A program made the translations under genes and the position numbers. This document shows positions 8,037-51,169 of a stretch of 64,000 nucleotides of DNA, one piece after another; position 1 is the first letter of the stretch; each line of letters begins with the position of its first letter. Source of the DNA: Nitrospira sp. (GTDB lineage Bacteria > Nitrospirota > Nitrospiria > Nitrospirales > Nitrospiraceae); the NCBI GenBank assembly GCA_009594865.1, contig VOPT01000051.1, positions 62,001-126,000 on the forward strand, written 5' to 3'. A model generated the notes under the pieces. That model saw nothing but the letters and a program-made list of their open reading frames with translations. It was not told the DNA's origin and did not search any database.

Positions 8037-8456
8037 CTACATCATTTGCTTGAAGATGGTCAGCAGCTTTTGGCAATACGTGGGATCGGCGGAAAACTCG
8101 GCCCCGGTCAGCGGCACATTTAAGAATTTATTATATCCTGGCAGCGATCGTACCTCTGGGGAGTCGAGATCGCGAAATCCCATGGACCAATTGGGAAATT
8201 GTCGCGCGGGTATGGTGGTCTGCAAGAGCGTGAGGACTCCGCTATGGCGCTCATCCTGGAAGATTTTTGCGTAGAGGTTCAATACCGCCTGTTCCTCGCC
8301 CTCGAGCGCTTGCATAAAATTCCCGTTTTTATACAGCAACATCCCCGTGATACCTAATTGGCTGTTGTGTGCGTGGCACAAGGCGAGCAGGTCCGTGAGT
8401 TCAGATGGTGAAAACGGTCTCGTGGCAGAACTGGCGTAAACGAGACAAAACATCAT
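8037..8456 (-). CDS. BLUF-domain blue-light sensor protein
   Basis: A 139-residue protein made almost wholly of one BLUF domain. Counting from ATG 8456 (AGAGGA site just upstream), the flavin-site residues align exactly in spacing with the classic photoreceptor AppA: Tyr7, Asn31, Gln49, Trp90 and Met92. The domain binds FAD and changes conformation in blue light. No output domain is fused, so it must signal by protein contact. The adjacent PilZ gene 1.8 kb away could be a target by analogy with BLUF/cyclic-di-GMP circuits, but nothing in the sequence links them directly. Confidence 0.9.
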   Translation of the reverse strand: MMFCLVYASSATRPFSPSELTDLLALCHAHNSQLGITGMLLYKNGNFMQALEGEEQAVLNLYAKIFQDERHSGVLTLLQTTIPARQFPNWSMGFRDLDSPEVRSLPGYNKFLNVPLTGAEFSADPTYCQKLLTIFKQMM

Positions 8457-8610
8457 GTCCTCTCGCTGCGACGATTCTGTTAGGGGCAATCGCGACATAC
8501 AAGCTGCAACATTCGCTGGGCTCTGTGGGTTGAAACAACTCTGCCGCCATTTTTGCTTTCGATCAAGCCAATTTAAATTTTCCAGCTCAGCATTTTGGCC
8601 CCTTGGTTGG

Positions 8611-8841
8611 TATGGTTTTCGTCATACGTTCGCGACGACCCTCGTACAGAGCGGAATCGATCTCTATAAGGTGCAACAGTTGCTCGGGCATAAATCGCCC
8701 ATCATGACGCAACGGTATGCCGACCATTATCCGGAAAGTTTGCGGGATGGAGTAGAGATCTTAGACCGTCGCCGCGCCGGTAGCACAAAAGTAGCACAGT
8801 CGGCGGGTCATGAACCGGGTGTGAACTGCGTAAGTATTTGA
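8611..8841 (+). pseudogene. Tyrosine integrase remnant (C-terminal end only)
   Basis: Only the last part of a phage-type integrase is left: FRHTFATTLVQSGIDLYKV with the box II Arg, LLGHKSPIMTQRYADHY with the His and catalytic Tyr, then a tail to 8841. The sequence before about 8611 is unrelated, and the Arg of box I and the N-terminal domains are missing. The stop lies 5 bp from the 3' end of tRNA-Lys, the usual position of an integrase next to its attachment site, so an integrated element was once here and has been mostly lost. Confidence 0.75.
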
Positions 8842-8846
8842 AAAAA

Positions 8847-8922
<76 letters not shown>

Positions 8923-42839: not shown

Positions 42840-42917
42840 GGTCCCATCGTCTAGCTTGGCCTAGGACGGAGCCCTCTCAAGGCTCAGACACGGGTTCAAA
42901 TCCCGTTGGGACCACCA
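42840..42917 (+). tRNA. tRNA-Glu (anticodon CTC), target of an integrated element
   Basis: Acceptor GGTCCCA/TGGGACC, anticodon stem-loop GAGCC-CTCTCAA-GGCTC giving CTC, T arm ACGGGTTCAAATCCCGT, and encoded CCA. Its last 44 bases (42874-42917) are repeated exactly at 50754-50797, so an element has integrated here and restored the tRNA. Confidence 0.96.
42874..42917 (+). other. attL core: 44-bp copy of the tRNA-Glu 3' end
   Basis: Identical to 50754-50797. It begins in the anticodon loop (CTCTCAAGGCTC) and ends with CCA, the typical crossover region for tRNA-targeting integrases. Confidence 0.9.
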
Positions 42918-42944
42918 CCACTTACGTGGTTCATGCAAATCTCC

Positions 42945-42966
42945 GGTGCCCATATGGTGCCCACCG
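42945..42966 (+). repeat. Two tandem 11-bp repeats inside attL
   Basis: GGTGCCCATAT then GGTGCCCACCG. The same 11-bp unit occurs five times inside the right end (50581-50635). The position, 28 bp from the att core, suits arm-type integrase or excisionase sites. Confidence 0.7.
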
Positions 42967-43007
42967 GATATGTTCTCTTCACTCAAAGCACTCAAGGGAG
43001 AGCGCAA

Positions 43008-43529
43008 ATGTCTGATCTCAAATTGACCGATGCTGAACGGTTGATCTTGGCTAACCAGTACGAGATTCTTGGTCATATCAAGAAAGATGAGCATTACACG
43101 CAAATGTCGGAGACGCTCCGGGACGGACACGAATGGCTATATCAACAGTACTTTGAAAGCCTGAGTGAGAACTTACCGGAGAACAAAGCTATGCATGTTC
43201 TGGAAATTTTGGGCATCTATGGCGATTTGAGAGACAGCTTCGACAAGCTCTCTGACAAGTCAGAAATCGAAGAATCCCAATTGAATTTCCCTGGATTCGA
43301 CGGAAACAATGAAGCGGAGTTGCTCAGCTTTTCCCGCGCCCTGCGAAAGCACGGTCGCTTTGAGACCACGATTGGCCCTGCGGCAAAGAACTCGCACATG
43401 CCAACGACTGAAGTCTATGCGAGAATGATCAATGCTTGGAAAGGCCTTGGCGAGCCAAAGTATCCATACACAAGAGAGCAAATCATAGCCATCCTTGATG
43501 CCAGAATCCATCCGTCCAATCGCAAGTGA
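43008..43529 (+). CDS. YfbU-family protein
   Basis: A 173-residue protein with GGGAG before ATG 43008. It matches YfbU in order: LTDAERLILANQYEIL near the start, a central EILGIYGDLRDSF, then FPGFDGNNEAELLSFSRALRKHGRF and an end with TTEVYARMINAWK and EQIIAILDAR. The family has no settled function; in E. coli it is a conserved small soluble protein. Here it is the first gene inside attL and points inward, separate from the integrase operon, so it looks like cargo. Confidence 0.82.
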   Translation: MSDLKLTDAERLILANQYEILGHIKKDEHYTQMSETLRDGHEWLYQQYFESLSENLPENKAMHVLEILGIYGDLRDSFDKLSDKSEIEESQLNFPGFDGNNEAELLSFSRALRKHGRFETTIGPAAKNSHMPTTEVYARMINAWKGLGEPKYPYTREQIIAILDARIHPSNRK

Positions 43530-43601
43530 AGTCGGCACATGCTGTGCACCGTCTTATGATCGGTGTTCCTTAGGGCAATGGCGCAGGTATCTCTGGCACA
43601 T

Positions 43602-44633
43602 TCACCCGCCAGCATTCTGAGCTTTAATTTCTGGTTCCTGATCTTGATGACTCAAATGGGACATGGCTTTTTGTAGATGTCCTGGAGAGAGATGCTGATA
43701 TCGCAAAGTCATCCGAGGGTCTTTGTGACCGAGAATTTCCATGACGGCTCGCTGGGATACTCCGGCCATGGTCAATGTGCTGGCAACGTCGTGTCTTAGA
43801 TCGTGAAATCGCAACCCTGCAATGCCCAGATCCTTGGTCAATCGTCTGAAGGCGATGGTAACGGCATCCACGCTGAGGGCGGGGAAGACCTTGGCCTGAG
43901 GGTCAAGAGGCCTTAAGAGGCTCTGCAGGGTGTCTCTGAGGGTATCCGTGAGGGGAACCACTCGTCGCTCACCGTTCTTCGTTTTCTCAAAAGCGACGGT
44001 TCGACCTCTCATGTCGATATCACACCAACGCAGAGCGGATAATTCCCCACGCCGCGCGCCAGTCTGGAGCGCAGCTAGGATATACAGTCGAAGGTCGGGC
44101 CTGGCATGTGCCAGGATTGCGCTTCGTTCCTCTGGTGATAGATATCTGACTCGTCCAGGAGGAGGGGTGACTTTCGAAAGCCCTTTCGCAGGCGAGTCCT
44201 TGAGGTATCGCCATGCGACGGCACGGTTGAGGATGTGCTTGAGCCGCATCATCTCTTTTTTGACCGTGCCGCTGGCGACTTTCGTCAGTCGTTCAGCCTG
44301 GAAACGTTCAATCTCTTCATGGCGGATTTTGCTCAATCGCAGCCCACCAAGGGAAGGGACTAGGTGGAGATCGATAGTATGCCGGGCGCGTCGTTGCTCG
44401 TGAAGACTTAGACTCTCCTTGATCGTCGGCCAATATTTCTTCTCGATAAAATCCTTGAGCAACATACCTTCTTCACGGATGCCGGTAATGTCGCCTCGGG
44501 CGATTGAACCAAGTTTGTCCCTGAGTTTTTGCTTGGCGATTCGATGCTCAAGGCTGGCCTTTTCACGATGACGACGGCCTTCTGCGTCCCGATAGTCGAT
44601 CCAGTACCATCCATTTTTGATGAAGACCCCCAT
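43602..44633 (-). CDS. int: Tyrosine integrase of the tRNA-Glu element
   Basis: A 343-residue site-specific recombinase with a GGAGGG site before its ATG. An N-terminal arm-binding segment (MGVFIKNGWYWIDYRDAEGR) and a SAM-like core-binding domain (60-160) precede the catalytic domain: Arg194 (TGARRGE), Lys near 217-219, His277-x2-Arg280 (FHDLRH), His303 (LGHKDPRM) and Tyr312 (RYQH). It is full length and all catalytic residues are present, so it may be active. It is transcribed towards attL as the second gene of an operon. Confidence 0.93.
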   Translation of the reverse strand: MGVFIKNGWYWIDYRDAEGRRHREKASLEHRIAKQKLRDKLGSIARGDITGIREEGMLLKDFIEKKYWPTIKESLSLHEQRRARHTIDLHLVPSLGGLRLSKIRHEEIERFQAERLTKVASGTVKKEMMRLKHILNRAVAWRYLKDSPAKGLSKVTPPPGRVRYLSPEERSAILAHARPDLRLYILAALQTGARRGELSALRWCDIDMRGRTVAFEKTKNGERRVVPLTDTLRDTLQSLLRPLDPQAKVFPALSVDAVTIAFRRLTKDLGIAGLRFHDLRHDVASTLTMAGVSQRAVMEILGHKDPRMTLRYQHLSPGHLQKAMSHLSHQDQEPEIKAQNAGG

Positions 44634-44644
44634 AGCAATCCCTC

Positions 44645-45736
44645 CTACCGTTTCTGTCTTTTTCTTTTCAGCCGTCGAAGATACTTGGGTTTTGCGCGGA
44701 TTGTTCTATCAAGCACAGCACAGCGACTTTCTCCCTTTGGGGTTTTGGGCTCCGGGCAATATTCCGTTCCCCGATGGGATTGAATGAAAAATTCTCCACA
44801 GTGCTCTCGCTTACAACGCTTCATCCGGCCATTGATGACTAAATTGTGTAGGTGCCAATAGGCTATTTCTATGAGGGCGTGGTACTGAAAGAAGCTTCTC
44901 TCGGCCTTACCGTCTGCTTCGATAGCAAGCCGAATCTCTCCAATATTTCTATTGATAAGGTCGCGCCTTAAATGTTTGGCAAACTGAAGTGCAGTCCACG
45001 TCTCTGGTTGAGACCAGAGGATCTTCTTGGTCTGATGTAGAAACGCAAGAGTGAGCTCAAGAGTTAGATGCTTTGATCCTCTTAAATGTGGGGGTTGAAA
45101 TTTTCGTAAGTAAGAGGCTACCGATTCGTTTAGGTAGACAATATCCGACTCATCCATTTCATTTTCGTCTTGAATGATGAGGGTAAGATCGCAACAGAGT
45201 CTAAGGGTTCGAATGTGAGCCCAGATCCAATACAAGAGATCACCCCCGCCACTTAAGAGCCAAGCTTGTTGCATCTTGGAGTCTGTCAGCGCGATTTCGT
45301 TGCAACATCTATAAAACCGTTCTCGCTCATCCCGGATGACCTCTCGTATCCATAGTGCCTTACGATCGTTTGGGATCTCGGGGGGAAGGGTTACATCCTC
45401 CAAGTCTCTTTCAGTATTAAATCTCCTTGCTATCAGTACTTCTGGGTAAGTCGGAAGAAGCTTTGACAGTCCAAGCATTCCATATTTTCTGGTGAAGGAT
45501 AAGAGCCCCGCCTCATCTCCTTCTTGAATCTTGGCTAACTGAATGGGGATGGATTTGTATCTGTGATCGACTGGATACGAATCTCGCGAGTCTGAAGTTT
45601 TAGCAATGAGAATGCCATTCACCACTTCGTAGGCACTTGCCACAGGCCAGCTTTTTCGAAACCCTGTATTGAGGCTCTCAATAGATCTGGGGTCGTCAGG
45701 TTTTGGAGATATGTACGTTCTTTTTTTGAGAGGCAC
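44645..45736 (-). CDS. Element protein with a CGNR-like zinc finger (363 residues)
   Basis: A soluble protein with no overall family recognised. Near its C-terminus it has a zinc-finger pattern, MKRCKREHCGEFFI ... RGTEYC ... SRCA, followed by a strongly basic tail (KPKYLRRLKRKRQKR). This resembles the CGNR finger seen in some transcription factors. It is expressed from the divergent promoter region and its stop lies 11 bp before the integrase start, so it may be the regulator that controls the two divergent units. That role is inferred from position. Confidence 0.65.
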   Translation of the reverse strand: MPLKKRTYISPKPDDPRSIESLNTGFRKSWPVASAYEVVNGILIAKTSDSRDSYPVDHRYKSIPIQLAKIQEGDEAGLLSFTRKYGMLGLSKLLPTYPEVLIARRFNTERDLEDVTLPPEIPNDRKALWIREVIRDERERFYRCCNEIALTDSKMQQAWLLSGGGDLLYWIWAHIRTLRLCCDLTLIIQDENEMDESDIVYLNESVASYLRKFQPPHLRGSKHLTLELTLAFLHQTKKILWSQPETWTALQFAKHLRRDLINRNIGEIRLAIEADGKAERSFFQYHALIEIAYWHLHNLVINGRMKRCKREHCGEFFIQSHRGTEYCPEPKTPKGESRCAVLDRTIRAKPKYLRRLKRKRQKR

Positions 45737-45750
45737 TTTTCATCTCAATA

Positions 45751-45787
45751 TTGGTTATCGGTAACGTATATAGACGCCGATAACCAA
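45751..45787. promoter_or_regulatory. Long inverted repeat between divergent element operons
   Basis: Perfect 11-bp arms TTGGTTATCGG and CCGATAACCAA lie 15 bp apart. Part of this site (GGTTATCGGTAA, 45753-45764) recurs exactly at 48683-48694. The position between the integrase operon and the xis/primase operon indicates a shared operator. Confidence 0.75.
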
Positions 45788-45846
45788 CAATATTACCCTG
45801 TCGTGATCCGTGTCAACACCACTAGCGACGCATGAGGGAGGAACGT

Positions 45847-46062
45847 ATGAAGGAACGTACGTTGAAGAAAGAAACGATAGGTTCACTGTTCACGGTTGAG
45901 GAAACGGCAATCCGCCTAGCGGTGAAGCCCTCGACCATTCGCCGTCGCATCCTAGAGCATCGTATCGACTTCGTGAAAATTGGACGCAATGTCCGAATCC
46001 CGGAGAGTGCCATAGAGAAATTGATAGAGGGCGGACTCTCGATTGCCGTCAGTGATCGATGA
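45847..46062 (+). CDS. Excisionase-like helix-turn-helix protein
   Basis: A 71-residue MerR/Xis-type HTH protein with GAGGGAGGAA before ATG 45847. It contains SLFTVEETAIRLAVKPSTIRR (HTH) and KIGRNVRIPESAIEKLIE (wing), the standard excisionase/AlpA pattern. It overlaps the primase gene by four bases (ATGA). It probably directs excision and may activate its operon. Confidence 0.85.
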   Translation: MKERTLKKETIGSLFTVEETAIRLAVKPSTIRRRILEHRIDFVKIGRNVRIPESAIEKLIEGGLSIAVSDR

Positions 46063-48386
46063 TCCTAGAGCCAAGCGAGAAGACTATTCATGGCTCAGGA
46101 TGCCACACGCTTCACGAAGACCATGTGCTGGATCTTCGCAGATCGGGGTTGAGCGATGACACGATTCGGATCCTCCGCATAACTGCCGTTCGACCGCATG
46201 ATTTGCGGCAGTTCTCCGGTGCTATCACAGCGTACAGCATCCCCTATTTCTCCTTGACCGGAGAAGTGAACGGATTTACGCGCGCGAGATTATTTCCGCC
46301 CCTCAAAACCGAAAATGGCCACGCACAGAAATACACTCAGGCTGGAGGGACTGCGCCGCACCTCTACCTTCCCCCGCTTAGGAACTGGCAGGAGATAGCT
46401 AGTGACCACAAGCAGGCGTTCCTTATTACTGAGGGGGAGAAGAAAGCGGCGAAGGCCTGCCAGGAAGGGCTAAACGTGGCAGCAGTAGGCGGCGTATGGA
46501 ACTGGAGGGTGCGGATTGACAGCGGTGAAAGAATTACGATTCCCGAACTAGACGCTTTTGTATTCAGCGGTAGAAAAGTCGAACTTGTCCCTGATAGCGA
46601 TGCGTGGCGATCCGAGAAGATGCAGCACATTTTAGGCGGATTTTACGCCCTCGGAATGGAGCTTCAGCGTAAGGGCGCGCAAGTCAGAATCGTGCGACTG
46701 CCCGATATCGCCGGTGAGAAGATTGGCCTTGATGATTGGTTAGTGAAAGAGACGGGTTCAGCACAACTGTCTGTTGAACACCTGGAGAGAATTGACCTTG
46801 CCGATTCTCGGCTGCACAGAATTGCAGCATGGTGGCAAGCGTGGACTCGAAGGCAAGAACGCGCTGCGGCATTGGCACAAACAGATCTCGCGAAACTTGT
46901 GAACGATATTCGTCTTAATCAATCGTTCAAACCATTCGAGAAAAAGCGCGATATTGCAGATCATGCGGTGAGGGATCTACGTGAACGAGGTCGGCTGATA
47001 AGAACGGACGATGATGAGTTGCTGTATTTCGATGCCACGGCAAAGACCTTGGAGCGAATTGAAGGGGCAGACTTTCTTGCCGCTCTCTGTGACAGGCTTG
47101 GCCTAAATCAGACCGAAGAGGAAACCCGGTTTGTACAAGCTGAGATTGTCACTCAGGCGCGGGTACGGGGAGAAAGAGCCGTTGTTCATCGGTTCGCGTA
47201 TTGGGACAAGAACAAGCACACCCTATATATCTGGGCAGGGAATGGATCGATCTACGTATGCGACGGAACAGCAATCAAGATAAGCGACAATGGAACGGAT
47301 GGAGTCCTTTTTAATGAGGAGTCTCTATTCGAGCCAGTCGCACCAGATTCAGATGCTTCGGTGGAAGACTTCCATACTGCGTTCCAATTTCTTCCGATTG
47401 AAAACCTTCCTGTTCCAGGTGCAACGCTGGCCGTACTGAAAACCTGGGTGCTTTCAATCTTCTTTCTGGAACTCCTCCCGGTTCGCCCTATTCTGACCAT
47501 CTTTGGCGAACAGAATAGCGGAAAGTCTTCTACTGCAAGGTTTCTCGGCCTTCTTCTTTTTGGAAAACGTTTTGAAGTTGGGGGATTCCGCTCAGACAAG
47601 AGTGGGGAATCTGATTTTCTGGCAGCTATCACCAATCAGCGATTAACCGTTTATGACAATGCAGATAGTCCAGCGTCTTGGTTAGGGGATCATCTAGCAC
47701 GAGCTGCAACTGGTGCCGTGATTCAGCGGAGACAATACCATACCACCAATAATCTCATATCTTATCGTCCGAACACGTTTATCGCTCTAACCTCACGGGA
47801 TCCGCGGTGGAATCGAGACGATGTTGCGAAGAGGCTTTTGCCGATTCGCCTGTACTCGCTTCAGCAAGGCGGGAACATGCCGGAAGGCACACTCAAAGAC
47901 ACTGTTCTTCAAGCGCGCCCAAAGATTTGGGGAGGCATGCTTCAATTCCTCAATGTGGCAGTGGAATTGATGAAGGCTGAAGTGACGTCGTATCGGTCAA
48001 GTCATCGACTAGCTGACTTTCATCGGTTAGGAACCTTTCTCGCTCGATCAATGGGAGTTGAATCTCTCTTTGAATCTGGGATGGAAAATCTTAACCAGTC
48101 TCAGCTCGATCTCTTAGCTGAGAGTGATGAGCGCCTTGACCTTGTGCGCTTATGGATCGATCAGTTTCCGGGAGGATTAGGCGAGATCAGTATCTCGGTC
48201 CAACAGCTATTCATTTCACTCAAAGACAAGTATCCGGGCTCAGAAAGGAACTTCCCCTTCCGAAGTCCGCATGCGCTAGGTTCTTGGCTCTCAAAGAACA
48301 AAGAGCTAATCAAGTCTCAGCTTGGCGTCTCAATCATGGATGATCGGTCGCAGGGGAAGCGCGGCTGGATTTTTTCCAGCACCTAA
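46059..48386 (+). CDS. Replication primase-helicase-like protein (Toprim + P-loop ATPase)
   Basis: A 775-residue protein. The N-terminal part resembles DUF3854/Toprim proteins (HEDHVLDLRRSGLS; ITEGEKKAAKACQ with the catalytic Glu; LVPDSDAW with the metal Asp). The C-terminal ATPase has a Walker A GEQNSGKS at 483-490 and a Walker-B-like LTVYDNAD near 529-536, then conserved ALTSRDPRWNRDDVAKRLLPI. This combination is typical of plasmid and phage-satellite replication proteins. It overlaps the HTH gene, and an iteron array begins 12 bp after its stop. Confidence 0.85.
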   Translation: MILEPSEKTIHGSGCHTLHEDHVLDLRRSGLSDDTIRILRITAVRPHDLRQFSGAITAYSIPYFSLTGEVNGFTRARLFPPLKTENGHAQKYTQAGGTAPHLYLPPLRNWQEIASDHKQAFLITEGEKKAAKACQEGLNVAAVGGVWNWRVRIDSGERITIPELDAFVFSGRKVELVPDSDAWRSEKMQHILGGFYALGMELQRKGAQVRIVRLPDIAGEKIGLDDWLVKETGSAQLSVEHLERIDLADSRLHRIAAWWQAWTRRQERAAALAQTDLAKLVNDIRLNQSFKPFEKKRDIADHAVRDLRERGRLIRTDDDELLYFDATAKTLERIEGADFLAALCDRLGLNQTEEETRFVQAEIVTQARVRGERAVVHRFAYWDKNKHTLYIWAGNGSIYVCDGTAIKISDNGTDGVLFNEESLFEPVAPDSDASVEDFHTAFQFLPIENLPVPGATLAVLKTWVLSIFFLELLPVRPILTIFGEQNSGKSSTARFLGLLLFGKRFEVGGFRSDKSGESDFLAAITNQRLTVYDNADSPASWLGDHLARAATGAVIQRRQYHTTNNLISYRPNTFIALTSRDPRWNRDDVAKRLLPIRLYSLQQGGNMPEGTLKDTVLQARPKIWGGMLQFLNVAVELMKAEVTSYRSSHRLADFHRLGTFLARSMGVESLFESGMENLNQSQLDLLAESDERLDLVRLWIDQFPGGLGEISISVQQLFISLKDKYPGSERNFPFRSPHALGSWLSKNKELIKSQLGVSIMDDRSQGKRGWIFSST

Positions 48387-48397
48387 GTTTCAGAAAA

Positions 48398-48596
48398 AGG
48401 TGTCAACATGTCATTTAGCATTCAAATAGCTGATAACGTTATCGCTTTCACGGACATCTTCTTAAAACAACGTGTCACGCGAAGGTGTCACCCATGACAC
48501 GTTGCCATCTTCGTGACACCTTCGTTGATGTAAGGTGTCATCGATAAAATATTGAAAAACCGCCTCTTTCTCATTTCTTTGACACGTTGACACCTT
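48398..48596. repeat. GTGTCA iteron array, putative replication origin
   Basis: Eight copies of GTGTCA or its complement TGACAC: 48400-48405, 48472-48477, 48485-48490, 48495-48500, 48514-48519, 48535-48540, 48580-48585, 48588-48593. Most extend to AAGGTGTCA/TGACACCTT or AACGTGTCA/TGACACGTT. Two pairs are nested as an inverted array around about 48492. AT-rich DNA (48541-48580) lies between the sixth and seventh copies. This matches origins of replicating elements, directly after the primase gene. Confidence 0.8.
48432..48443. promoter_or_regulatory. 12-bp perfect palindrome within the iteron region
   Basis: GATAACGTTATC shares the GTTATC half-site with the operator at 45751-45787. It lies between the first and second iterons, so the element regulator may also act at the origin. 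Confidence 0.5.
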
Positions 48597-48682
48597 TTTT
48601 AGATAAAGCGTTGATAGAAAAGAGAAGCTAAGTGAACCGTTAAGCCCCCACCACAAAGCCTTCCTCTCGGTGCGCAAGTGCA

Positions 48683-48694
48683 GGTTATCGGTAA
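48683..48694. promoter_or_regulatory. Second copy of the operator 12-mer before the downstream gene block
   Basis: GGTTATCGGTAA is identical to 45753-45764. It lies 42 bp before the first gene of the right-hand block. Confidence 0.6.
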
Positions 48695-48735
48695 GCATCA
48701 TTGAGAAGCCTAAGAAAAGCTCATAAGAAGAGCTC

Positions 48736-49155
48736 ATGAGCGCTTCTGACAGCAAAAAAAGAGCTTCTCGCAGCTTCACAGCCCAAACGTTTAAGACATT
48801 CAACCCCAAGCTTTCGTATCGAGTCCTTCCTGGAGCGAAAGAAGTGGAGGTCTCGATCACTGTTGATCAGAAGTGGGGAGACATTGCTGTTGAAGTCCTT
48901 CGGTTCATGAACCAGATGGTGAGATCGGTCGATCGATTATCTGAGGCAGGGTTTCGGCAAACGCGGATAGAGAATATTCTGGCAAACATGGAGCTTCAGT
49001 ACAGGAGAATTCGTGATCGGTACGCGGTTCTAAGGGCAGAAGGGGTCAAGCATCGAATGGCAGTCTATAACCTCGTCAAGGATAGAAACCTGCCTTTCCA
49101 TGGGCGATGGGGATATTCTCATTACAATTGGTGCGTGCGGACACCTCCACGCTGA
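48736..49155 (+). CDS. Element protein (139 residues), unknown
   Basis: A basic, mixed alpha/beta protein. Recognisable segments are SFTAQTFKTFNPKLSYRVLPG and a helical middle (ILANMELQYRRIRDRYAVL), then a Trp/Tyr-rich end (GRWGYSHYNWCV). No family recognised. It follows the operator copy and opens the right-hand gene block. A DNA-binding role is possible from its charge but unproven. Confidence 0.6.
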   Translation: MSASDSKKRASRSFTAQTFKTFNPKLSYRVLPGAKEVEVSITVDQKWGDIAVEVLRFMNQMVRSVDRLSEAGFRQTRIENILANMELQYRRIRDRYAVLRAEGVKHRMAVYNLVKDRNLPFHGRWGYSHYNWCVRTPPR

Positions 49156-49204
49156 GCCGTGTTTGAGGTGGTAAAGAGGGAATTGTATGCCATTAGGAGC
49201 GCTT

Positions 49205-49483
49205 ATGCCTAAGAATGCTGCATCCGCTGATCAGGGCTTCACACAGAAGTGCTTCCCTGACCTCCCTTGGCCTCTCAAAGACTGGTGCAAGGCTCGTGGG
49301 GGGAGTGCCCCACCGCCTTGGCGACCGAACCCAAACCGTGGTGATCAATCCGTCCCTAACTATGTCGGAGAAGCTCTTACAGAGACCGATATTGGGACCA
49401 AAGTTAAGGTGGTATTTTTCGTTACCGCGGCGTTAATGGCCTTATGGTTTGGTACGCGAGTGTATGAAGCTTGGAAGCGTTAA
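49205..49483 (+). CDS. Element membrane protein (92 residues)
   Basis: ATG 49205 has AGGAG five bases upstream, better than the ATG at 49187. The N-terminal two thirds are hydrophilic and Pro/Trp-rich (FPDLPWPLKDWCKA); one C-terminal transmembrane helix (VVFFVTAALMALWFGTRVY) follows. The topology resembles a tail-anchored protein. No family recognised. Confidence 0.6.
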   Translation: MPKNAASADQGFTQKCFPDLPWPLKDWCKARGGSAPPPWRPNPNRGDQSVPNYVGEALTETDIGTKVKVVFFVTAALMALWFGTRVYEAWKR

Positions 49484-49494
49484 GGAGGTTCGAT

Positions 49495-49899
49495 ATGGTC
49501 AGCGGTGAGCAACAGCTACAATGCCCAATCTGCCAACAAGTCATGACGCTCAGAGGACTCCACGGCCATTTGCGCATCAAGCATAACAAGGCGAAAGAGG
49601 ATGTTATGAACCTCATTGGGCAGGCACCGGTGGATCCGGACGAAAAGACAGAAGAAATTCTCAATCTTCTGGAAATGCTCAAACATTTAAAAGAGCAACA
49701 TGTTGGGATTAATGTCTTGAAAACCAGAGGGTGCTTTGAGCATGAAGAGGTAGAGGTCCAAGTGATGAGCTCCCTCCAGAGAGAGGCCGGAGTCATTGTT
49801 GATCGACTGACCGAATTGGGCGTGACACTGGATGAGGCCGACATTATGGCCTATTGTATGACTCTCAAAAGGCAGACGCGAAGTAGCATAGAGATATGA
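49495..49899 (+). CDS. Element protein with a C2H2-like zinc finger (134 residues)
   Basis: A perfect TAAGGAGG site precedes the ATG. A finger-like CPICQQVMTLRGLHGHLRIKH (Cys2-His2 pattern) lies at the N-terminus, followed by an acidic helical region with LEMLKHLKEQH. It may be a DNA-binding regulator. It overlaps the next gene by four bases. Confidence 0.7.
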   Translation: MVSGEQQLQCPICQQVMTLRGLHGHLRIKHNKAKEDVMNLIGQAPVDPDEKTEEILNLLEMLKHLKEQHVGINVLKTRGCFEHEEVEVQVMSSLQREAGVIVDRLTELGVTLDEADIMAYCMTLKRQTRSSIEI

Positions 49900-50222
49900 T
49901 TTCAGAAGACGATCTACTCGCCGCTGATGTCAGCTTCGATCCGCCCCTCTATAAGAAACGGGTCAAGACGCATCAGGTCTACTTGATTCCTCGGTTGGGA
50001 AGCATTGTGAAGGGAAAGGTGATGGGAATCGTTCTTTCTCGGACCATGGATAGAGTCCTGGGCCGATGGTCGATCACGATGGAAATTCCTGTGACGTTGG
50101 CCTATGACAACCGGCCTGAATATGAGGTCAAGGAATTCCCAATCAGCGACTTGACGAGAGAAAGTCTGTACCATCGCATCCTAGAAGCCTTTCAAAAAGA
50201 GTCACATCGCATCGGATTTTAA
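49896..50222 (+). CDS. Element small protein, paralog A (108 residues)
   Basis: A soluble beta-rich protein. Key pattern: HQVYLIPRLGSIVKGK, then MEIPVTLAYDNRPE and FPISDLTRESLYHRIL. The following gene encodes a protein with the same pattern in the same order, so the two are tandem paralogs. No family recognised. ATGA overlap with the zinc-finger gene. Confidence 0.6.
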   Translation: MISEDDLLAADVSFDPPLYKKRVKTHQVYLIPRLGSIVKGKVMGIVLSRTMDRVLGRWSITMEIPVTLAYDNRPEYEVKEFPISDLTRESLYHRILEAFQKESHRIGF

Positions 50223-50276
50223 GTCCTCGTGTCGTCTGGTTGGATTCCCACATCACATGACAGGCCGGGATAAAGT

Positions 50277-50564
50277 ATGAACGACGAAGAACAAGCTGAC
50301 CTGCAAAACGCCGAGCTGAAGTTCTATCCGCAGCTGGGGACGAAGACGAGAGAAGCGCGAGAGGTATACCTTACAACCGCATCAGGCAAGATCTGTCGGG
50401 GCATTCAAGTCTGGCGTGGAAAGGTGAAGATGCCATTGTGCCTTGTGCTGCACAATTGTCCTGAAATAAGTGAGCGTCAGGTGCCTCTGTCAGAGTCAAC
50501 GCAGAAATGGTTGACGAAGAGAATTAAGGATATGTTGTTTAACGCTGCAGCCGGCCTTTTGTAG
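50277..50564 (+). CDS. Element small protein, paralog B (95 residues)
   Basis: Aligns by eye with paralog A: REVYLTTASGKICRG, VKMPLCLVLHNCPE, VPLSESTQKWLTKRIK. Sequence identity is low but the order and spacing of the VYL, MP/IP, PE, P-x-S and RI positions agree. It is the last gene before the right-end repeats. No function recognised. Confidence 0.6.
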   Translation: MNDEEQADLQNAELKFYPQLGTKTREAREVYLTTASGKICRGIQVWRGKVKMPLCLVLHNCPEISERQVPLSESTQKWLTKRIKDMLFNAAAGLL

Positions 50565-50580
50565 TTCGGCCTCATTTTCT

Positions 50581-50635
50581 GGTTCCCATATGGTGCCCAT
50601 ATGGTGCCCACTCAGTGCCCATATAGTGTCCATTC
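50581..50635 (+). repeat. Five tandem 11-bp repeats inside attR
   Basis: Units GGTTCCCATAT, GGTGCCCATAT, GGTGCCCACTC, AGTGCCCATAT, AGTGTCCATTC in perfect 11-bp phase. Eleven bp is about one helical turn, so a protein would bind all copies on one DNA face. Two more units lie inside attL. Confidence 0.75.
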
Positions 50636-50753
50636 TCAGTCTCTCTGGATCACACTCCATCACAATCAAAGTCTCCATAACTGATCATTTTTCCTGCTGT
50701 TTCTCGCTTTCAGTCGTTCTCAGTCGTAAATGGTCATAACGACCTGATTTGCT

Positions 50754-50797
50754 CTCTCAAGGCTCAGACACGGGTTCAAATCCCGTTGGGACCACCA
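50754..50797 (+). other. attR core: second 44-bp copy of the tRNA-Glu 3' end
   Basis: Identical to 42874-42917 but with no complete tRNA around it, so this is the distal junction of the element. Confidence 0.9.
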
Positions 50798-50803
50798 ACC
50801 TTT

Positions 50804-51169
50804 TCAGGCAGTTAGCACAAGCCGGGTCGGACCCACCCCCGGCATTGTGCTAAATTTGTGATAGTCGTCCTTAAACACCTGCACCGCCTCCCGCAAATTC
50901 TCCGGCGCCAGATGCGCATAGCGTTGCGTCATCTGTCCGTCTCGGTGGCCGAGCAACCGTTGCACGCGGTAGAGATCCACGCCTCTCTGCACGAGCGCGG
51001 AGGCGAAGGTATGCCGCAGGTCGTGAAAGCGAACGTTCGTCACGCCTACGGACTCGCAGGCGCGCCGAAAGGCCGTCGTGACCATATCCGGCGTCACCGG
51101 TTCCCTGTCGTCGGTGTGCTCGAGAAAACAGAGCCGCTTGCGAAGGGCCTCTTGTCTCGATGGGTCGAT
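50804..51169 (-). pseudogene. Second tyrosine integrase remnant, next to attR
   Basis: The frame opens after a stop at 51170-51172 without a start and encodes the last 121 residues of an integrase unlike the intact one: RKRLCFLEHTDDREPV, FHDLRHTFASALVQRGVD, LLGHRDGQMTQRYAHL with the catalytic Tyr. N-terminal and box I regions are missing. It ends 6 bp from attR, so it is the remains of another element that used the same tRNA. Confidence 0.8.

Follow-up and report, generated by a model that had tools for sequence, protein, structure and literature searches.

A site-specific 7.9-kb integrative element in tRNA-Glu of Nitrospira with replication genes of its own, plausibly a phage satellite

P4-like phage satellites are known for the capsid-size and hijack genes Sid, Psu and Delta. 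Little has, to our knowledge, been described of the phages and mobile elements of Nitrospira, a genus of key nitrite oxidisers, and our literature search found no paper naming both 'Nitrospira' and 'phage satellite'. Phage-inducible chromosomal islands (PICI) of Gram-negative bacteria measure ~12-15 kb and occupy attachment (att) sites never used by prophages (PMC6092414), and the phage-inducible chromosomal minimalist islands (PICMI) of Vibrionaceae, for which a helper has been shown, measure ~6 kb and lie next to fis (PMC10803314). Here we describe a 7.9-kb element inserted in the tRNA-Glu(CTC) gene of Nitrospira sp. GCA_009594865.1, a fragmented metagenome-assembled genome (MAG; 3.7 Mb, 78 contigs, 85% complete); the window analysed is the 64,000-nt stretch at positions 62001-126000 of its contig C5 (VOPT01000051.1). 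The sequence supports well that this insert is a genuine site-specific, replication-capable integrative element, as it combines an integrase and att repeats with an empty site in relatives. A preliminary description had already proposed a complete integrative element with its own replication module, and the att pair, the empty site, the intact int, xis and primase genes and the iterons bear this out.

By gene content, the element may work like a minimal satellite such as PICMI. Compared by layout only, both are small and encode an integrase, an AlpA/Xis-type helix-turn-helix (HTH) protein, a primase and a few unknown genes, with an int-adjacent gene in the int operon and no capsid-remodelling genes; however, the Nitrospira element sits in tRNA-Glu rather than beside fis, is 7.9 kb long and carries the gene of a 363-residue protein, P363, upstream of int, whereas iolg of PICMI overlaps int (PMC10803314). 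Like Gram-negative PICI, it has an integrase, a regulator and a replication module without structural genes, but it lacks terS, is shorter than the 12-15 kb of those islands (PMC6092414) and shares its att with a terminase-bearing element. That element, in N. defluvii, places TerL, a head protease and a tape measure at the same att, which departs from the PICI pattern unless it is itself a satellite. The own capsid and packaging genes that mark capsid-forming PICI (cfPICI) were not recognised. With P4-like satellites it has in common tRNA integration, an integrase, a small HTH excisionase-type regulator and a primase-helicase followed by an origin-like array, whereas its DUF3854 primase has no significant match to P4 alpha profiles and no homolog of Psu, Sid or Delta was recognised in the element with Pfam, PHROGs and NCBIfam. 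The preliminary description had spoken of a satellite layout of the P4/PICI type; the integration, regulation and replication modules are as it said, but the size and att site are not those of PICI and the P4 hijack genes were not recognised. Integration, regulation and replication genes without structural genes are nonetheless the general gene set of a phage satellite, and among the annotated element proteins, a scope that covers gene families, oriT apart, there is no relaxase or mating family of the kind that marks integrative mobilizable or conjugative elements. Since packaging by a helper is what defines a satellite, we regard 'phage satellite' as a plausible but unproven label.

The limits of the element can be read from the sequence. 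The 3' end of the tRNA gene recurs 7880 bp downstream, start to start, as a 44-bp direct repeat without mismatch (98% over 47 bases), just as the preliminary description had it, and since chance cannot yield a 44-mer the match is no coincidence (Table 1). GC content is 46-54% within the element versus 58-60% to its left and to its right beyond ~52.5 kb. In four congeners (G407, G210, G115 and G129; we label genomes G, contigs C and loci L) the att block is present as a single copy, that is, as an uninterrupted site. In G407 the tRNA is followed by the same bases as flank attR here (74 bp at 93%), and because this genome runs from the tRNA directly into them, the site is seen empty. An Rfam scan found nothing besides this tRNA.

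The recombination and replication genes are intact by sequence: the integrase keeps its catalytic motifs, and the reading frames of integrase, excisionase and primase are open and match PF00589, TIGR01764 and DUF3854, in agreement with the earlier statement that all three are intact. Just inside the ends, the octamer GGTGCCCA occurs in pairs with a spacing of 11 bp; its four copies in the 64 kb lie two within 40 bp of the left att and two within ~165 bp of the right att. An island in another genus (G434, locus L107) occupies the same tRNA between the same flanking genes, with a 63%-identical integrase and two att copies 6.8 kb apart, and has GTGCCTAAATAGTGCCTA at the equivalent place inside both ends. 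Because the layout is kept while the sequence changes along with the integrase, the paired GTGCC end repeats are probable integrase arm sites. In other respects this island differs, having unrelated replication proteins and neither P363 nor the u139-u95 genes.

The xis stop overlaps the start of the primase-helicase gene, whose product carries Toprim-type (EGE, DSD), Walker A (GEQNSGKSS) and Walker B-like (VYDNAD) motifs, all common to a full-length, 50%-identical relative in G135. Behind it, GTGTCA occurs eight times in the 349 bp between primase and u139, four times per strand, and AAGGTGTCA is the context of five of the eight copies; none of 500 shuffles matched this number, which upholds the origin-like iteron array of the preliminary description. 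The array fits an iteron origin, and it is here that we infer replication to start. The divergent regulatory region also noted earlier contains an 11-bp perfect inverted repeat. Its core, GGTTATCGG, has two copies in this region, one upstream of u139 and no others in the window, and because both control regions have it in common, one regulator may couple the post-origin operon to the genes for excision and replication. The equivalent region of two elements that carry a P363 relative, L060 and L078, has two and three CGTTAC copies, respectively, which is no more than a hint. A sigma-70 scan found promoters no more frequent than in shuffles.

The element's best link to phages, an indirect one, appears to run through P363, whose relatives are paired with Int and Xis in Nitrospira elements with terminase, HK97 head and tape-measure genes. 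The P363 gene lies 11 bp upstream of int and co-directional with it, and relatives were found in 3 other genomes among 175 of the family and on one IMG/VR contig; four cysteines are invariant. Two of the relatives match zf-CGNR (PF11706) weakly (best 9e-5) and P363 itself does not; the earlier statement that it has no recognised family holds for the protein itself, which we read as a probable divergent, CGNR-like zinc-finger protein. In G385 and G177, the P363 relative abuts or overlaps the integrase gene and the Xis homolog is divergent, the layout found here. The preliminary description had proposed looking in related genomes for the order att, int, xis, primase; G385 shows Int and the P363-like gene on one side and Xis and primase on the other, and G434 agrees with the element in integrase type, tRNA and end repeats, so that this check did not refute the proposal. 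In the congener Candidatus N. defluvii (G055), the P363 relative is divergent from an HTH gene near an integrase, within a 16.1-kb element that shares this tRNA and its 44-bp att (L060 1176-17350, reverse complement) and encodes TerL (1e-169), TerS, a head protease, HNH and a tape measure. The element of G385 encodes a major capsid protein, TerS, HNH and a tape measure, and further along its contig lies a 470-residue gene, terminase-like by eye. No portal was recognised among the scanned proteins of these two elements, which may be prophage remnants or capsid-forming satellites. Searches of P363 against phages and against plasmids with tblastn gave no match. As an observation in its own right, the Nitrospira elements at L060, L078 and L098, with TerS, head protease or major capsid, HNH and tape measure and with no portal recognised, are candidate capsid-forming satellites or worn prophages.

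The primase points to a wider set of islands. It has a match in 29 of 396 genomes of the phylum, and each of the 11 loci examined, which were chosen from the strongest matches and near kin, combines an integrase with a tRNA gene on one stretch of DNA, so that the DUF3854-type primase marks tRNA-borne islands in the phylum. Five of these loci have att repeats of ~45 bp or more (one broken by a mismatch) at tRNAs for Thr, Ser, Lys, Arg and Met and span 9.7-14.8 kb, and the cargo of six bounded elements includes Schlafen/AlbA and restriction-helicase genes. Outside this six-element pool, L032 (4784-11570) is a 14.8-kb tRNA-Met element with a DUF3854 primase, Xis and a DnaJ-like gene, in which a terminase-like protein of 569 residues (phrog_2, 6e-6) and a divergent protein ending in a CGNR-like tail are also encoded; no capsid was seen in it. 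Full-length relatives in phage records belong to two Brevundimonas phages (24% identity). A peptide-pattern search for close relatives in viral and genome contigs found none, because the relatives found later are at most 50% identical.

We favour, with moderate confidence, the explanation that this is a self-excising, self-replicating 7.9-kb Nitrospira element that a helper, likeliest a tailed phage, most probably carries between cells. Int would recombine att at the 3' end of the tRNA-Glu(CTC) gene without disrupting the tRNA, with the paired GTGCC repeats within both ends serving as its arm sites, Xis would shift this reaction to excision, and the excised circle would replicate from the iterons that follow the primase-helicase gene. 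The P363-int and xis-primase operons would diverge from the palindromic-operator region, with a third half-site ahead of the post-origin genes, and P363 or Xis, as a single regulator, would probably switch both gene sets. YfbU, u108 and u95 would be cargo, the latter two perhaps defence-related. Phage-borne, helper-dependent transfer ranks as likeliest because no relaxase was found and the P363-Int-Xis group recurs with terminase and capsid genes: a primase relative, L032, has a terminase-like gene, and relatives of P363 occur with TerL, TerS, head protease, major capsid and tape measure. Several results weigh against it. Searches with Pfam, PHROGs, NCBIfam and PADLOC recognised no capsid, terminase, portal or interference gene in the element, in line with the preliminary description, which had seen none for capsid, packaging or interference; the 85%-complete host assembly contains no HK97-type capsid and hence no obvious resident helper of that kind; the six bounded primase relatives show no head or packaging family among the 25 families listed per library; and the structure model of P363 is poor (pLDDT, predicted local distance difference test, 57) and found no match in a structure search.

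A less probable reading is that of an integrative plasmid-like island without a phage tie, spread by natural transformation, by a conjugative helper via an unseen oriT or by general transduction, whose phage-like primase and integrase are merely shared modules. No packaging gene occurs here or among the listed families of the six bounded relatives with their defence-like cargo, other islands at this tRNA, which bring varied cargo and an integrase of another kind, resemble ordinary genomic islands, and transfer by natural competence is documented even for phage satellites (PMC13376191). However, no relaxase family was found, the relatives of P363 are so far confined to islands, two of which have phage head genes, and plasmid matches cover at most 49% of the primase, phage matches up to 95%. 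That the related N. defluvii and G385 elements are larger and retain a head and packaging block could instead mean that a prophage or larger satellite lost this block here and is now immobile or nearly so. This we consider improbable, since genes, iterons, both att and both sets of arm repeats are all intact and a compact operon, its zf134 and u108 genes overlapping by ATGA, fills the post-origin slot instead of debris. A misjoined contig that mimics an insertion is scarcely credible: the MAG is in 78 contigs and one of them, C39, carries the same 44-bp repeat and looks foreign, but both the left flank and, from 53969 on, the right flank match G407 at 92% identity and in unchanged order, what is left of a known tRNA-Glu island lies right of attR, and G434 independently has the same integrase in the same tRNA. 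More speculatively, the element could be the minimal end of an undescribed Nitrospirota satellite lineage sharing Int and a CGNR-type regulator divergent from Xis and primase-helicase, and ranging from packaging-free (here) through terminase-bearing (L032) to capsid-bearing forms in which no portal was recognised (N. defluvii, G385). Together, the bounded element, its predicted arm sites, origin and operator, the empty site and a hotspot in common with a head-gene element make small-island movement testable in a hard-to-culture phylum, and P363-Int-Xis provides markers to seek in virion metagenomes.

The remaining genes are largely candidate cargo. One of the small genes listed earlier as unknown belongs to the YfbU family. 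The post-origin genes had likewise been described as lacking a known family; this stands for u98, which has no family match, but u108 and u95 prove to be mutual paralogs with five relatives in the same bacterial family, among them the u108-type proteins at loci L090, L092, L093 and L094. One relative adjoins a NotI-type nuclease and an adenine methylase (G108), another a ResIII/DUF3427 helicase and an HNH gene (G448) and a third an HD-associated gene (G027), and those in G453 and G220 lie beside genes without a recognised family. Because the relatives often adjoin restriction or helicase genes, their neighbourhoods weakly suggest that u108 and u95 are defence cargo. The structure model of u108 is good (pLDDT 82) and has no structural match in the PDB or among viral models, so the structure search proposed in the preliminary description identified neither this protein nor P363. 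Scans of viral contigs for zf134 and u139, and tblastn of u139, zf134 and u108 against phages, found no match; zf134 is an orphan and u139 nearly one. PADLOC reported no defence system, only a single-gene weak Mad1 match for Xis and others. Separately, the element of G153 at L095 (9710-17303), which contains the distant u139 relative, also encodes a small ATPase, a transglycosylase-like protein and a protein of 372 residues that has no family, and is possibly a tailless phage.

Table 1. Features of the element and its target site, in window coordinates.
Feature	Position	Strand	Basis
tRNA-Glu(CTC), integration target	42840-42917	+	ARAGORN, Rfam
attL, 44-bp repeat = tRNA 3' end	42874-42917	+	repeat match; empty site in G407, G210, G115, G129
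Left pair of GGTGCCCA repeats, probable integrase arm sites	42945-42963	+	same layout in G434
YfbU-domain protein, 173 aa, probable cargo	43008-43529	+	PF03887 2e-30; relatives in temperate phages
Tyrosine integrase, 343 aa	43602-44633	-	PF00589 1e-26; catalytic motifs; 63%-identical relative at same tRNA in G434
P363, CGNR-like zinc-finger protein, 363 residues	44645-45736	-	four invariant Cys; zf-CGNR in two relatives; pairing with Int/Xis in L077, L078
Palindromic operator, divergent promoter region	45751-45787	.	11-bp perfect inverted repeat TTGGTTATCGG/CCGATAACCAA
Xis, excisionase-type HTH_17 protein, 76 aa	45832-46062	+	TIGR01764 above cut-off; PF12728
Primase-helicase, DUF3854 Toprim-like + ATPase domain, 775 aa	46059-48386	+	DUF3854 2e-14; motifs
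Iteron array, 8 x GTGTCA, probable replication origin	48399-48594	.	shuffle test; strand fold z -3.65
Third copy of operator half-site GGTTATCGG	48683-48691	+	three copies in 64 kb, all in element control regions
u139	48736-49155	+	distant relative in element of G153
u98, hydrophobic C-terminal segment	49187-49483	+	sequence; no family match
zf134, C2H2-like zinc-finger protein, orphan	49495-49899	+	weak zinc-finger matches; no relative in 175 genomes
u108, beta-barrel-like protein, possible defence-linked cargo	49896-50222	+	relatives' neighbourhoods; model
u95, paralog of u108	50277-50564	+	29% identity
Right array of 11-bp TGGTGCCCATA repeats, probable arm sites	50580-50633	+	repeat analysis; G434 comparison
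attR, 44-bp repeat	50754-50797	+	exact match to last 44 bases of tRNA-Glu(CTC)

Across the genus, tRNA-Glu(CTC) is an insertion hotspot. Eleven congeners have a further att-block copy 1.6-18 kb downstream (a partial one in G349), and G247 holds several tRNA-Glu islands in a row. Most of the hotspot islands (L060-L072) use another integrase and carry a replication-initiator-like gene together with cargo that varies and includes large helicases and an ArsR/arsenate-reductase-like set. Directly right of attR in the window (50798-51150), ~390-400 bp are 87-93% identical to that end of congener islands which holds att and the integrase, so a second tandem island was once present and is now a stub; the insert right of attR extends to about 53969, near which the G407-like backbone resumes.

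Contig C39 of the same assembly (L073) has a diverged second version of the right flank of the window's site, a third 44-bp att, a reverse-transcriptase-like gene and an integrase. We set aside its att as a second insertion: because its flank duplicates the genes flanking the window site at ~72% DNA identity, C39 is probably a contaminant contig from a second Nitrospira in the bin. Elsewhere in the window, a C-terminal integrase-like fragment (8455-8841) beside a tRNA-Lys gene (8847-8922) is a remnant of another tRNA-borne island.

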